Part shown: in pieces, positions 2,501-61,155 of the stretch
How positions within the stretch are numbered: position 1 is the stretch's first letter
How the letters are laid out: every line of letters begins with the position of its first letter
NCBI RefSeq assembly: GCF_900104575.1
Contig: NZ_LT629731.1
Coordinates: 2,306,689 to 2,370,688 of the forward strand
Source: Bacillus tuaregi
GTDB lineage: Bacteria > Bacillota > Bacilli > Bacillales > Cytobacillaceae
Length of the DNA: 64,000 nt
Direction of reading: 5' to 3'
Made by a program: the position numbers and the translations under genes
Notes under the pieces: generated by a model
Seen by the model: only the letters and a program-made list of their open reading frames with translations
Told to the model about the DNA's origin: nothing
Database searches by the model: none

Positions 2501-2556
2501 TTCTGATTATCACATTGTTAATTCCATATACATACGTGTATAAAGACAACGATCTA

Positions 2557-2640
2557 CCACTTTCCTTCGCTAGCATTACCTAGTGCAGGTTCAAGGGTTA
2601 AGGCCAATGCCTCTCTCAGCTTCAAAAGCACCCCTAGTGT
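2557..2640 (-). promoter_or_regulatory. TPP (thiamine pyrophosphate) riboswitch, THI element
   Basis: On the minus strand the conserved blocks of the THI element occur in order: ACTAGGGGTGC, GCTGAGAG, ACCCTTGAACCTG and a final TAATGCTAGCGAAGGAAAGT. These are the pyrimidine-sensor and pyrophosphate-sensor helices of the TPP aptamer, closed by a CACT/AGTG P1 stem. It precedes ylmB-tenA-ABC ATPase, with an intrinsic terminator in between, so high TPP should switch the operon off. Confidence 0.95.
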
Positions 2641-2751
2641 TACTTGGTTAATAAAATTGTATATTCATATAGTTACATAATTTGGAGAGTAAATCAATAG
2701 CTTTATTTGATTTTTAATACTATTCGTATAATCTGGTGCCATACACTGATA

Positions 2752-10250: not shown

Positions 10251-10303
10251 GATTTTTAGTACCTCCAAGTAGTTTTTGGGGAAGCGTTCTCCCCCACCTC
10301 TTA

Positions 10304-10529
10304 TCAAATTCGCCCGTCGAATTTGCGTCCGGATTACCTGAGCATGCTCGGATAAACGACCTTTAAAAAATCCGTGACATCCGCCGGAGGCTTAACTTCA
10401 TTCAGCCGGGGTTTGAAACTCCACTGAATCGAAGTACTATTTGCATTCATCTCCCACTTGTAGAAGTGGAGGACTTCTGTACCTGTCGCAAGCTTTCGGT
10501 ACAAAAAGCATTTGCTGAATGAAGTTAAA
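10304..10529. repeat. 226-nt structured dispersed repeat, copy 1
   Basis: This element is about 85-90 percent identical by eye to 30310-30534. It has a left part with a hairpin (AAATTCG...CGAATTT) and a GAGC/GCTC palindrome. A right part is enclosed by a perfect 15-bp inverted repeat, TTAACTTCATTCAGC (10392-10406) and its complement (10514-10528). Inside are the hairpins CCACTT/AAGTGG and GTACC/GGTAC. Read on the minus strand, GAAGTCCTCC-stem-GGGAG resembles the terminal stem-loop of IS200/IS605 TnpB guide RNAs, so a tnpB-less derivative is possible. The TTAA at its right end supplies the stop codon of the DsrE gene. Confidence 0.8.
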
Positions 10530-11004
10530 TAAATAAGTTTACATTTCCTTCTTGAGCATCTGCTAGATAGGCAGCAACCCCGGCATATTCAATGTTATCC
10601 AATAGTTCTTCCTGCTGCAGACCTAAAAGGTCCATTGTCATTGTACAAGCAACTAATTTAACCTCTTGCTCTTGAGCCATTTCAATTAGTTGTGGAAGAG
10701 GCATTGCATTATGCTTTTTCATAATATCTTTAATCATTTTTGGTCCAAAGCCGGCAAAGTTCATTTTTGAAAGTCCCATTTTGTCTGGACCTTTTGGCAT
10801 CATTTTGCCAAACATTTTTTCCATGAAGTTCTTTTTCACTTCTATATTTTCATCTTTACGAAGTGCGTTTAATCCCCAAAATGTATGGAATATCGTTACT
10901 TCATGATCATAAGCAGCTGCTCCATTAGCAATTATATAGGCTGCCATCGCCTTATCATAATCTCCGCTAAATAAAACAATTGTTGTCTTCTTTCTTTCTG
11001 TCAT
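10525..11004 (-). CDS. yrkE: DsrE/DsrF-like family protein (YrkE-like)
   Basis: This 159-residue protein belongs to the DsrE2/YrkE family (VLFSGDYDKAMAAYIIANGA at the N-terminus, a central MMPKGPDKMGLSKMNFAGFG segment, and VKLVACTMTMDLLG containing the likely persulfide-carrying cysteine). Such proteins pass sulfane sulfur to or from TusA. A GGAGG site precedes ATG 11004. The stop codon falls in the terminal inverted repeat of the structured repeat, so insertion may have replaced the last residues or only touched the stop. It is followed upstream by tusA in the same direction. Confidence 0.88.
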   Translation of the reverse strand: MTERKKTTIVLFSGDYDKAMAAYIIANGAAAYDHEVTIFHTFWGLNALRKDENIEVKKNFMEKMFGKMMPKGPDKMGLSKMNFAGFGPKMIKDIMKKHNAMPLPQLIEMAQEQEVKLVACTMTMDLLGLQQEELLDNIEYAGVAAYLADAQEGNVNLFI

Positions 11005-29952: not shown

Positions 29953-30309
29953 GTTATTTTTAATATATGGTAACGATAATGAAAATGCAACGATTTTTTA
30001 CCTAAAATTATAAAAGAAGTCCACTTACTTTTTGTAGTATATGCAATCTTCGACTATCTATGTTGATGGACCTCTTACCCTTCTTGTATGATTGGTTATT
30101 TTCTAGTATGTAATTGAATTGTACGTGGGTTATATACTGATATTTAATTTAATATGGGCGAGGTGATTTGTTATTTTATTGTGTAATTAGCACATTGTAA
30201 AATTAGATAGAAATATTGAATTACGAATAAGGGAAGCTTGCCAATGATTGAATAGTTTCTTAAAGAACCGAATCATCGAAGTAATCATAAAATAATCCAG
30301 GAATTATGA
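29953..30309. other. AT-rich intergenic region with no gene seen
   Basis: About 357 bases between the NrtR-like gene and repeat copy 2. I found no open frame with a ribosome site and no convincing RNA gene; it presumably holds the leftward promoter of the regulator near its left end. Confidence 0.5.
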
Positions 30310-30534
30310 TCAAATTCGCCCGTTGAATTTGCGTCCGGATTACCTGAGCTCGCTCGGGTAAACTACCTTTAAAAAATTGCAAGACTCGCCGGAGGCTTAA
30401 CTTCATTCAGCCGGGGTTTGAACCCCCACTGAAACGAAGAACCATTTGCCCACATCCCCCACTTGTAGAAGTGGAGGACTTCTGTGCCTGTCGCAAGCTT
30501 TCGGTACAAAAAGCATTTGCTGAATGAAGTTAAA
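30310..30534. repeat. 225-nt structured dispersed repeat, copy 2
   Basis: Second copy of the element at 10304-10529, in the same orientation. The perfect 15-bp inverted repeat is conserved (30397-30411 and 30519-30533), as are the CCACTT/AAGTGG hairpin and the CTTCATTCAGCCGGGGTTTGA core. Differences are concentrated in the spacer between the left and right parts and in loop positions, with some arm changes keeping pairing (for example CTCCCACTT to CCCCCACTT). This copy ends 12 nt before a small plus-strand gene. Confidence 0.8.
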
Positions 30535-30546
30535 GGATGTGAAAAT

Positions 30547-30795
30547 ATGATTTCTTGGTATCGGAATCAATCGATGATTGGTCAGGCCTGGACCGGCAGA
30601 CATGTGATGGTTGTTCAATGCCAATTGAATCCTCACAATGTATGGAATGTTCAAACCAGTTATTATGCCCCAACAGAGCCAATCAAAAAAAATTGTGCTG
30701 AAACCCTGTCCCAGCACTTAAGTATCGGCTATAAAATTATTGACATGACGTTTATTCCGCCAAATTTGGTTCAATACCTGTTAGTGTTGGAATAA
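30547..30795 (+). CDS. Hypothetical protein directly after repeat copy 2
   Basis: An 82-residue soluble protein (MISWYRNQSMIGQAWTGRHV at the start, ending QYLLVLE) with AGGATG eight bases before ATG 30547. I do not recognise a family. It has two cysteines and no membrane helix or signal peptide. An open frame extends upstream into the structured repeat to 30484, but that part is repeat sequence and not credible. The promoter would have to lie in or before the repeat. Confidence 0.5.
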   Translation: MISWYRNQSMIGQAWTGRHVMVVQCQLNPHNVWNVQTSYYAPTEPIKKNCAETLSQHLSIGYKIIDMTFIPPNLVQYLLVLE

Positions 30796-42584: not shown

Positions 42585-42760
42585 AATTTTGACCACTTCC
42601 CTCAGGGAATGTTAAGGCAACGGTGTGCCGGGTCAAATGCCGATTGGCAACTTTGGTTGCCTTATTGATTGAGTTAAAAGCTCAAATTTTATAAGTTGGT
42701 AACTTTATAACCAGTGCATCTGCACATCAACTTGTGAAACGGTCAATAAGAGTGGTAAAA
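42585..42760 (+). other. Candidate structured RNA region, unassigned
   Basis: Between 42426 and 43064 there is no open frame but several nested stems. TTGACC (about 42588) can pair with GGTCAA 45 nt on, enclosing TTCCC/GGGAA and GGCA/TGCC hairpins; a GGCAAC/GTTGCC hairpin follows, then GTGCA/TGCAC, and ACCACT can pair with AGTGGT near 42755. An intrinsic terminator at 42911-42956 precedes the next gene. The layout is like a regulated leader, but no known riboswitch consensus was recognised. Confidence 0.35.
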
Positions 42761-48899: not shown

Positions 48900-48985
48900 T
48901 TACCTAAACTTACTTAAATACTACTTAGAGGCAAGTTTTCCAGTAAACCTTGCTCCCTTGGTCAAGCCATAGGATTCAATTTATT
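48900..48985 (-). ncRNA. Probable TnpB guide RNA (omega RNA) at the IS607 right end
   Basis: TnpB guide RNAs overlap the tnpB 3' end and run to the right end, the next host bases serving as guide. Here the region contains a hairpin (GCAAG-TTT, then AAA-CTTGC) just after the tnpB stop, and an AT-rich end motif. The RNA is inferred from family knowledge and not proven; its exact 3' end is unknown. Confidence 0.45.
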
Positions 48986-50404
48986 TGCACCGCTATTTCT
49001 AACGGATGCAATCGGTTTCTCATGATTTGCGAACAAATCATACCTTACCGCATAGGTGATACAAGCGAGCTTCCACTTTTTCACCCAGTCCGAGCCAGAC
49101 AATATTTGTATCTTTTTAGCCATATTAATGGCACTATTTAAGTCACGAACAATGGTATGTCCACAAGAAAGACAAATAAACAAACGAACCTCCGGTTCTT
49201 TCTTTTCTTTATGACCACAAACACAACATTCTTTGGTTGTATTTCTTTCGTTTACCATTTTATATTGTTTCCCACGTTTAGAAGCAACCCACTGTAATAT
49301 TTTACGGAATTCACCAATATGTGTTTGATTCAACATACTTCTTTTCATATTTTTAGAACGAGCTGTGCCATTCGTAGGCGTATAATCACCAATAATCACT
49401 AAATCGTAGTGATTATATAACCAATGTGCGATACTATATAACGCGACTTTAATTTGTTCTCGTCGTGTATGGTACGCTTTATTCAAAGTATTATTGTATC
49501 GAGCCCATCTTTTGCTTGGCTGCCAGTAAGCGTTGCCGTGTTCTGTTTCTATTTTGATTGATTTTCTCTCGCAAAAATCTCTTTTACTTTTGATTTCATC
49601 AATCTTTTGATCCCAGAATTCTGTTTGATAAATTTTACTCATTTCATAGGAAACTCCTTTGTAATCTACTGCTACAAAGAAATTTTTATGATTCGGATCT
49701 AAACTAACCCATTTGGTTCCCTTCGGGAACCTTTCTTTTGTTTTTGATTGTTTTTTCTTTTTCTTCGAGTGATAAATCGAATGTGTATGTAATAACTTTT
49801 TCTTTAGTTCTTTAAATGTTTTTTCTATTTGTTTTTGTTCTTTTTCCATTGTTTTATATCTTTCAATGGTAAATATCCCATAAAAACGATTTCCTTGTTG
49901 TTTGCATAACCGAAAGGTTTTGATTTCTTCTTTTTCTTTAATAAAAAAAGGTTCACGTAACGTTCCGTTTACTGTGAGTTGTTTGCCTGATATATCTTTC
50001 CCAAATGAAATCCTAATCGTTTTAGAATCGAGTAATTTAAACCCTTTGTTTGGCTCATCAAAGTATAAAGAAAACCACTTCTCCTTCCAACTACGGAACT
50101 TTGGATATCCATTTTGCTTTTTAAAAAAACGGTCATAGGCATCTTTTAAGCGCAAGGCCGTGTTTTTTAACGGGGAAGAATGCACGGTCCGAAGGAATGG
50201 ATGGATTTTTTTCAATGTTGTAGCGTAATTTCTTAAATTTCGTCCTTCTAACAACTTTAAAGGGGAACCATTCTCATAATCATTTTGGGCAGCTTGAATT
50301 AATTGATTATACAGCCAATTACATATTTTACTTTGACCGTCTAAGGCATAAGTGGTTTCTTTTGGAAAAATAATTTCCACCTTACGATTGAACGTTATAC
50401 TCAA
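48962..50404 (-). CDS. tnpB: RNA-guided nuclease TnpB of an IS607-family element
   Basis: TnpB proteins are RNA-guided nucleases that help keep the element at its site. This 480-residue protein has the split RuvC site: SLDPNHKNFFVAV (first Asp), VIIGDYTPTNGTARS (second acidic residue, Asp where Glu is common) and IVRDLNSAINMAKK (third Asp), with a CxxC...CxxC zinc ribbon (CCVCGH, CLSCGH). Translation starts at TTG 50404, eight bases after AGGAGG. The GDYTP variant is also, to my knowledge, common in Bacillus IS607-linked TnpB, so it need not mean inactivation. Confidence 0.9.
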   Translation of the reverse strand: MSITFNRKVEIIFPKETTYALDGQSKICNWLYNQLIQAAQNDYENGSPLKLLEGRNLRNYATTLKKIHPFLRTVHSSPLKNTALRLKDAYDRFFKKQNGYPKFRSWKEKWFSLYFDEPNKGFKLLDSKTIRISFGKDISGKQLTVNGTLREPFFIKEKEEIKTFRLCKQQGNRFYGIFTIERYKTMEKEQKQIEKTFKELKKKLLHTHSIYHSKKKKKQSKTKERFPKGTKWVSLDPNHKNFFVAVDYKGVSYEMSKIYQTEFWDQKIDEIKSKRDFCERKSIKIETEHGNAYWQPSKRWARYNNTLNKAYHTRREQIKVALYSIAHWLYNHYDLVIIGDYTPTNGTARSKNMKRSMLNQTHIGEFRKILQWVASKRGKQYKMVNERNTTKECCVCGHKEKKEPEVRLFICLSCGHTIVRDLNSAINMAKKIQILSGSDWVKKWKLACITYAVRYDLFANHEKPIASVRNSGANKLNPMA

Positions 50405-50492
50405 GTTTTCTCCCTCCTTTCTTTGATAATTAACCTAATTATAAGATTATTCAGGTGATATTTCAAGTAAGAATAAGTAAGTTTGAATAATT

Positions 50493-59169: not shown

Positions 59170-59257
59170 TACCTACTTAAGCATTATGAGTAGAGTAAGA
59201 AACTGATTTCAAAGGGATAGCTTGAGCTATCTCTTTTACTTTCAGTTCCTCCTCATC

Positions 59258-59290
59258 AAACCGTACGTGAGGTTTTCCCTCATACGGCTT
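59258..59290 (-). ncRNA. Group II intron domain V
   Basis: A 33-nt hairpin AAGCCGTATGAGG-GAAA-ACCTCACGTACGGTTT on the minus strand, with the GAAA tetraloop and the two-base bulge expected in catalytic domain V. It sits 33 nt after the reverse transcriptase stop codon. Confidence 0.85.
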
Positions 59291-59323
59291 TCCGACGTTC
59301 TTCTTTCTTTGGCTTTACGGTGT

Positions 59324-60625: not shown

Positions 60626-61155
60626 TGACTCTTACCTCCTTCTGACATATGAACGAAGTAGGGTAATGGCTAACGCCGTCCTTCCCTAGACAATGTTGTG
60701 TTGTCATTGTCATCATTGGTACTATGACCCCCTCCGACTCCCTCTCATCCATCTACCATTTCGTTTGCACTTATAGGTTTCTGCTTTACTTTCTTGAGAA
60801 AGTGATGAGGAGGGTATCCCCAGTTCCGTTAACTACTTTCCTAACATGTCGTTCCCCTTACCCCGAGAGATTCTTCGGTACTGCTGTTCCAAGTTCTTCA
60901 CACCTTCCATGGTCTTCGCCCATATTCACAAGGCTCGACTTCTCTTTAGCCACCGTAGGTGGGTTCTTTTGACGAGACGGCAGGATTCACTTTATGTTAC
61001 AACCTGTTAGTTTGCTCGCACTCTGCTAGAGAGTTACTTTGTCACAGGGCTTCAACCTTAGAATTTCTTCACCAGTTGCCTGTCAGCTACTGAGCGTCTT
61101 GGTACTTACTCAGATTGGACTTTCACCAATTAGCAATTAACGGCTTGCTGGGCAC
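60626..61155 (-). ncRNA. 5' structural domains (I-III) of the group II intron
   Basis: This 530-nt stretch between the intron 5' end and the reverse transcriptase has no gene and fits the ribozyme's domains I to III. Secondary structure was not worked out in full. It begins GTGCCCAGC directly after the SGNH terminator tail. Confidence 0.7.

Follow-up and report, generated by a model that had tools for sequence, protein, structure and literature searches.

A gene-less repeat of Bacillus tuaregi with the features of a palindrome-associated, non-autonomous IS200/IS605 element

The repeat that occurs twice in the 64,000-nt stretch of Bacillus tuaregi DNA analysed here (the window) is, with a probability of roughly 0.92, a gene-less, non-autonomous IS200/IS605 element of the kind known as palindrome-associated transposable elements (PATEs). 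A MITE-like derivative of this IS group had been one reading in the preliminary description, and exact ends, numerous copies, empty sites and covarying base pairs now all speak for it. The repeat is a new PATE family in a Bacillus-like host, and we met no account of it in the titles and abstract openings of the literature searched, subscription papers lying outside that search. Its sense strand is the minus strand of the window, where the following parts were delimited:

10303..10524, minus strand: copy 1, long form, 222 nt (ends from the 81 copies with both ends read; covariance-model match 10303-10393)
10525..10529, minus strand: TTTAA target (left cleavage site, CL), kept in the left flank of copy 1 (left-end logo)
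10479..10513, minus strand: extra 35-nt module of copy 1, between the left tip and the guide (copy comparison, length classes)
10451..10477, minus strand: left guide GAAGT of copy 1 (10473-10477), then the left hairpin (10451-10472) (sequence; IS605 elements are arranged alike)
10303..10326, minus strand: right end of copy 1, with guide GCAA, hairpin ATTCG...CGAAT and terminal cleavage site TTGAT (sequence, alignment, pair counts)
30309..30529, minus strand: copy 2, long form, 221 nt (sequence, right-end covariance model)
30530..30534, minus strand: TTTAA target of copy 2 (sequence)

The two copies had been described as near-identical, alike in orientation and provided with a 15-bp inverted repeat, and so they are: 207 of 228 aligned columns are identical, and the inverted repeat, TTAACTTCATTCAGC...GCTGAATGAAGTTAA, is common to both. 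By the 91-nt right-end model they are the only full copies within the window. The limits first given, 10304-10529 and 30310-30534, were correct to within one base at the right end and took in the target at the left. In the family consensus, TTTAA is followed by CTTCATTCAGC, the 35-nt module, a single A, the guide GAAGT and the left hairpin, CCTCCACTT CTAC AAGTGGGGG (in copy 1, CCTCCACTT-CTAC-AAGTGGGAG in minus-strand sense); onward from this hairpin come ATGAATGC..., GGGGTTCAAACCCC, the internal arm GCTGAATGAAGTTAA and a long imperfect hairpin, and the right part is composed of GCAA, ATTCG...CGAAT and the terminal TTGAT. Copy 2 with its target ends 12 nt ahead of the ATG (30547) of a plus-strand open frame (window 30309-30549); the promoter of this frame, if there is one, lies in or beyond copy 2.

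The ends could be defined to the base from copies elsewhere in the genome. Among 90 loci read, the core was placed in 89, the left end in 88, the right end in 82 and both ends in 81 (one of the 89 is without a left end and seven are without a right end; L004, with its core unmatched, was dropped, as were L261 and L262 from the relatives' set). Flanking sequence is random up to TTTAA, whose bases are found in 78, 85, 84, 85 and 85 of the 88 left ends, followed by C in 85; at the other side, random flank begins straight after ...TTTGAT (n = 82), with G rare as its first base (2/82). The exact ends are therefore TTTAA followed by C on the left and TTTGAT on the right, and terminal inverted repeats are absent, the left CTTC... 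(TTTAACTTC) and the right ...TTTGAT being different. Measured from the target AA, 37 of 81 copies are 222-226 nt long, 36 are 187-193, seven are 110-180 and one is 230; without the two target bases, these 81 copies span 108-228 nt, too short for a transposase. Copy comparison indicates that one class of short copies is without the 35-nt module near the left tip, and that others are without the module between two GTGGGGG repeats. PATEs also lose parts between direct repeats, according to passages of PMC3119063. L254 and L268 have a different sequence on the guide side of their left hairpin, which creates a longer palindrome of the CTTCATCC...GGATGAAG type.

Insertion takes place 3´ of TTTAA or CTTAA without target duplication. 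From the 81 sites, 16 were chosen for their nearby genes, their 70-base flanks were joined, and 15 of the joined flanks were searched in the genus; six matched across the joint in at least one of four relatives (L013, L022, L067, L081, L101 and L109). L067 (TTTAA) and L109 (CTTAA) are gapless through the joint against genome G001. L101 keeps the target as ...GTGATTTAA with a 2-base gap after it, L013 and L081 have drifted and have indels at the joint, and the match of L022, whose right end is damaged, is unusable. No duplicated target was seen in the six cross-joint matches, two of them gapless and four less clear. The other nine sites gave no match clearly crossing the joint, L080 reaching 4 bases past it.

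The expectation that further copies exist elsewhere was confirmed by counts in this genome and its relatives. A 27-base left-hairpin pattern, allowing up to three mismatches, found 145 matches in the B. tuaregi genome (4.86 Mb, 16 contigs) and none in a reversed control, and the four other genomes of the genus that were searched also carry the family, so that it is present in 5/5 with at least 40 matches in each. When the 226-bp DNA was searched against the B. tuaregi genome, the best 40 of 277 candidates were all near full length. The 91-nt right-end model, used with stricter filters, matched five of the 61 genomes of the bacterial family; all five belong to this genus, and the 56 from other genera gave no match. 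The repeat is spread more widely than this model shows, because a diverged copy (L179) is found in Bacillus norwichensis, about 300 bp from yrkE there. Many right ends in G002 share one model score, and L076 and L095 of B. tuaregi are identical over 194 nt, which suggests recent movement of the element. With 145 core matches in one genome, equal-scoring copies in a sister genome and the empty sites, the family offers extensive and sharply bounded natural material for the study of single-strand transposition.

The arrangement of guides and targets points to a transposase of the IS200/IS605 type. In IS608, as set out in passages of PMC5934647, each hairpin is preceded on its 5´ side by four guide bases that pair with the cleavage site (AAAG with TTAC for GL, GAAT with TCAA for GR), C is preferred at +1, and insertion is 3´ of the target. 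We placed left ends in 16 resident or related IS elements, L041, L202 and L204 by position and not by copy comparison; loci with an unplaceable left end, such as L199, L205-L210, L275, L277 and L281, were left out of the guide count. In 16/16, left guide and target end in complementary bases. The 16 are not independent of one another, since they include a set of close relatives (L195-L198 with L200) and the pairs L031/L032, L201/L220, L203/L221 and L284/L287; L041, L203 and L221 were read after the guide rule was formed. GAAGT accompanies TTTAA in eight of these elements (L195, L196, L197, L198, L201, L202, L204 and L220), GAAAT accompanies TTTAA in one (L200), GAAGA accompanies TTTAT in five (L031, L032, L041, L203 and L221), and GAATC accompanies TTTAG in two (L284 and L287). 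The repeat, with guide GAAGT and target TTTAA, agrees with the rule. Judged from sequence, the left guides and targets fit IS608 guide-target pairing, and GAAGT/TTTAA, GAAGA/TTTAT and GAATC/TTTAG provide a natural test of that rule on five-base targets. Only three right-end types were read, AGAAG/TTCAC, GGAAT/TTCAA and the CGCAA/TTGAT of the repeat; in all three, the last base is complementary and the base before it sets A against A. Across 38 sequences of the repeat, the CAA of the right guide is invariant. In the terminal TTGAT, positions 1 (T) and 4 (A) never vary either, and the remaining bases are at 90% or more.

We propose that a Y1 transposase (TnpA), acting in trans, would fold the minus-strand sequence as single-stranded DNA and grip the hairpins at both ends, whose guides are GAAGT on the left and GCAA on the right. 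It would cut after TTTAA on the left and after TTGAT on the right, with the guides picking the cut sites by base pairing, and the element would be joined to a new TTTAA in single-stranded DNA, mostly on the lagging-strand template, without target duplication. The mobilising enzyme is probably a TnpA, and candidates are the resident TTTAA-type TnpA (contig C16, 418612-419007; Pfam Y1_Tnp, E 4.4e-43), which belongs to an element with tnpA and tnpB, or a lost relative of it. Relatives of the resident TnpA with 91-95% identity are found in G057, G001, G004 and G045. The resident IS605 element (about C16:417360-419150, L042/L195) shares with the repeat TTTAA, the C, GAAGT, and a left hairpin followed by GATGAA; its relatives agree with the repeat in the same left-end features (target, C, guide, hairpin context) wherever that end is present but differ from it at the right end, and IS605 relatives in other genera are like the repeat in the same respects. 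Unlike the repeat, the resident element has TnpA and TnpB, an omega-RNA end, and a right end of the form AGAAG-hairpin-TTCAC instead of GCAA-hairpin-TTGAT, and kinship of the repeat to IS605-type ends was seen at the left end (target, guide, hairpin context). It counts against the proposed mechanism that, searching B. tuaregi and four relatives with the Y1_Tnp model, we found no IS or transposase element with the right end of the repeat; scanning their TnpA loci for the repeat ends gave short or nested matches only. G002, which has many copies of equal model score, contains only a truncated 60% relative of the resident TnpA, and G003 contains only distant or broken ones. We infer that either the resident TnpA tolerates another right end or the true partner has been lost or is unsampled.

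Folded as DNA, the window copies are more stable than shuffles, with z -3.66 (0/200 as good) and -3.65 (1/200), and folded as RNA, copy 1 has z -2.47 (2/200 as good). The near-terminal palindromes give z -4.31 (left hairpin of L070) and -2.15 (right hairpin of window copy 1). Some pieces taken in isolation fold no better than shuffles: the right end of L179 (z 0.02), that of L054 (-0.19) and, in copy 1, the tip together with the module (-0.77). The right hairpin, in which 98.5% of cells are paired, exists in two versions, AAATTCG...CGAATTT and AAATACGCC...GGCGTATTT. Covariation was assessed on a 97-column alignment of 28 right ends (11 from B. tuaregi, 17 others) from five genomes and B. norwichensis, hand-picked with the gap-free form favoured, using a 23-pair structure named from one of the sequences. 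In this set, 8/23 pairs have changed on both sides, compared with 1.6 +/- 1.1 in shuffles (0/500 reach 8); 96.0% of cells are paired, 15 of them double-change cells, and slid versions of the structure have 1-4 double-change pairs. The early remark that differences between copies often keep pairing thus holds across the genus; among the B. tuaregi copies alone, RNAalifold on 38 full-length sequences gave a double change in 1/47 pairs. An earlier 38-sequence alignment had led to a weaker automatic structure. The covarying right ends fit selection on folded DNA or on folded RNA, and either is possible.

A further reading is that the element regulates itself by alternative folds, with the internal arm GCTGAATGAAGTTAA pairing with the left tip and the target TTAA; in one fold the left cut site would be open to transposition, in the other it would be concealed within the 15-bp stem. 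We regard this as unlikely, though it has points in its favour. The two 15-bp arms are the best-conserved part of the 38 long copies (99.0% each, other parts 91.6-98.7%), and the left tips vary among IS elements of this group. The 11 tip pairs form in 837/858 cells in the B. tuaregi copies, leaving out three copies without a recognisable inner arm, and in 388/407 cells in a second set, mostly relatives. Against alternative folds, the 35-nt module is almost equally conserved (98.7%), and there are only two double changes, one of them in a rearranged copy.

The orientation of the copies shows that the sense strand of the element is mostly the lagging-strand template. GC skew was sampled separately from the copies, in twenty 20-kb stretches. 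Between 0.1 and 2.2 Mb it is positive, a single stretch at 0.44 Mb excepted; between 2.45 and 4.2 Mb it is negative, as it also is in the flanks of copies located at 3 kb, 55 kb and 2.25-2.40 Mb. Of the 113 distinct C16 copies listed, 102 are oriented with the skew-defined replichore (61/71 plus-strand in the positive-skew part, 41/42 minus-strand in the negative-skew part). In G003, which has 47 to 49 matches in all, 16 of the 17 listed copies accord with the replichore, and local skew agrees with copy orientation in 75/89. Passages of PMC6006769 report a preference for the lagging-strand template in IS608 and ISDra2. Genes share part of this bias, 5/44 sites with clear gene direction lying among lagging-strand genes; four of these five copies follow the replichore, the limits for this count having been set after the copies were seen.

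This last count bears on an improbable alternative, in which the repeat is a host cis-element, a terminator or mRNA 3´-end stabiliser, that is kept for its function and is not mobile. The strong folding of the window copies would suit such a role, as would the frequent intergenic location of copies in gene direction; at 12/81 sites, an upstream open frame of like direction terminates in TTTAA, with the copy directly after the TAA. The empty orthologous sites in relatives argue against it, as do copies on a 22-kb contig, near-identical pairs, and an orientation set by replichore and not by gene in four of the five opposed cases. Individual copies of what we consider a mobile element may have been adopted by the host. 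The left flanks of L003, L010, L017, L090 and L092 resemble the T-tract of an intrinsic terminator, and TTTTTAA offers a target. Copy 1 has the following upstream neighbour:

10528..11004, minus strand: yrkE-like DsrE_2 protein (Pfam PF13686, E 1e-69)

The element had been thought to supply the stop codon of this gene, an idea that the orthologues contradict: all 80 that were kept (of 549 found) stop at the same codon, and TTTAA lies over the stop in 27 of them. The yrkE stop codon is ancestral, the TAA of the target TTTAA, and the element was inserted directly behind it.

Much less likely is that the repeat is an orphan omega RNA, the minus strand being a TnpB guide RNA with a scaffold that ends in the GAAGTCCTCC hairpin. 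This hairpin does resemble omega-RNA terminal hairpins (GAAGCCCCCACTTC...AAGTGGNGGG), and TnpB genes account for 11 matches in the genome, one of them belonging to an element whose left end carries TTTAA. However, the hairpin is located at the left end of the repeat and is followed by more than 100 nt of element, not by flank. It lies 17 or 52 nt from the target with GAAGT directly 5´, as in the left ends of resident tnpA/tnpB elements. We read it from its sequence context as the putative left transposase-binding hairpin, because the left guide GAAGT and target TTTAA fit IS605 left ends; the likeness to omega RNA is explained by the similarity, in these IS, between the transposase-binding hairpin of the left end and that of the right. 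Six tnpB elements belonging to one omega-RNA group supplied the 3´ ends for a covariance model, which was searched against 18 sources. It matched L033 and L228, which are one element and had gone into the model, as well as the unused tnpB elements L032, L031 and L041 (E 4.5e-12, 2.7e-9 and 8.4e-7), and no repeat copy in the 13 sources holding one or two; its sole other match, in L003 with E 3.4, is outside the element. Rfam gave no match at the gathering threshold on the element and one chance match below it (sRNA162, 16.6 bits vs 78). We rejected omega RNA on this one-group model with its positive controls and on the left-end anatomy, and the proposal that the GAAGTCCTCC stem is a TnpB guide-RNA terminal hairpin was abandoned with it. 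The case is a warning that a transposase hairpin at the left end can be mistaken for a TnpB guide RNA.

It is slightly less probable still that the repeat is REP/REPIN-like and moved by a RAYT (TnpA-REP) transposase. REP elements have a GTAG/GGAG-type guide. Many copies, hairpins and relatives of Y1 transposases are common to both systems, and B. tuaregi has four RAYT-like Y1 genes (labelled by length and a weak Y1_Tnp score), one of them with a repeat copy directly upstream:

C15:173886-177230, B. tuaregi genome: RAYT-like gene module with nested repeat copy (L045)

This gene lies between inverted repeats of its own, GTGACAGGCACC...GGTGCCTGTCAC, with the copy nested inside after TTTAA, and the repeat is built like TnpA-IS200 elements in the arrangement of its five-base guide, GAAGT, and target; we therefore rejected RAYT as the mobiliser. 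The repeat is also much longer than REP/REPIN sequences and is without a GTAG-type guide (GT[AG]G in passages of PMC6006769). An ordinary MITE of a DDE transposase, which would likewise be short, non-coding and present in many copies, is the least credible origin and was rejected, given that TTTAACTTC at the left end does not form an inverted repeat with TTTGAT at the right, that filled and empty sites are without target duplication, and that the 15-bp inverted repeat pairs the left tip with an internal arm.

Among known systems, the closest likeness is to the PATEs of Haloquadratum walsbyi, which passages of PMC3119063 describe as having near-terminal palindromes and as lacking terminal inverted repeats, target duplication and a transposase; PATEs are also treated in PMC7290912. 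The repeat resembles them in its near-terminal palindromes, a left target of 4-5 bases, the absence of duplication and core loss between direct repeats. It differs in its Bacillus-like host, its internal hairpin modules, an internal arm that complements its left tip and the strong bias of its copies towards one replichore orientation, and no parent IS with both ends was found. With IS608 and ISDra2, as presented in parts of PMC5934647 and PMC6006769, it shares insertion 3´ of a short target, a 5´ guide plus hairpin at each end and the lagging-strand preference, and the C after the target is as in IS608 (PMC5934647). Unlike IS608 and ISDra2, the repeat is without tnpA or tnpB, and its target is TTTAA and its right cleavage site TTGAT. 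Passages of PMC6542083 portray the bcr repeats of the Bacillus cereus group as 100-400 bp long, with up to 130 copies of bcr1, a T-rich motif, TTTAT, linked to mobility, and a mechanism that is possibly site-specific recombination-like. We liken them to the repeat by description (size, copy number, T-rich motif) and not by sequence. The bcr motif TTTAT is the target of the GAAGA-guided elements read here, which provides a lead.

The window also contains other features. A TnpB-like frame of 490 aa (Cas12f1-like_TNB; L036) lies on the minus strand at about 48960-50430 and has five further copies in the genome (L034, L035 and L037-L039), with the same 3´ end in all. Each of these five starts at one or two single N, and the truncations therefore look like assembly joins rather than biology. 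Rfam places the following in the window:

59190-59292 and 60992-61132, minus strand: two group II intron parts
2545-2645, minus strand: TPP riboswitch
42590-42643, plus strand: SpF59 sRNA (43.6 bits vs 37.2)
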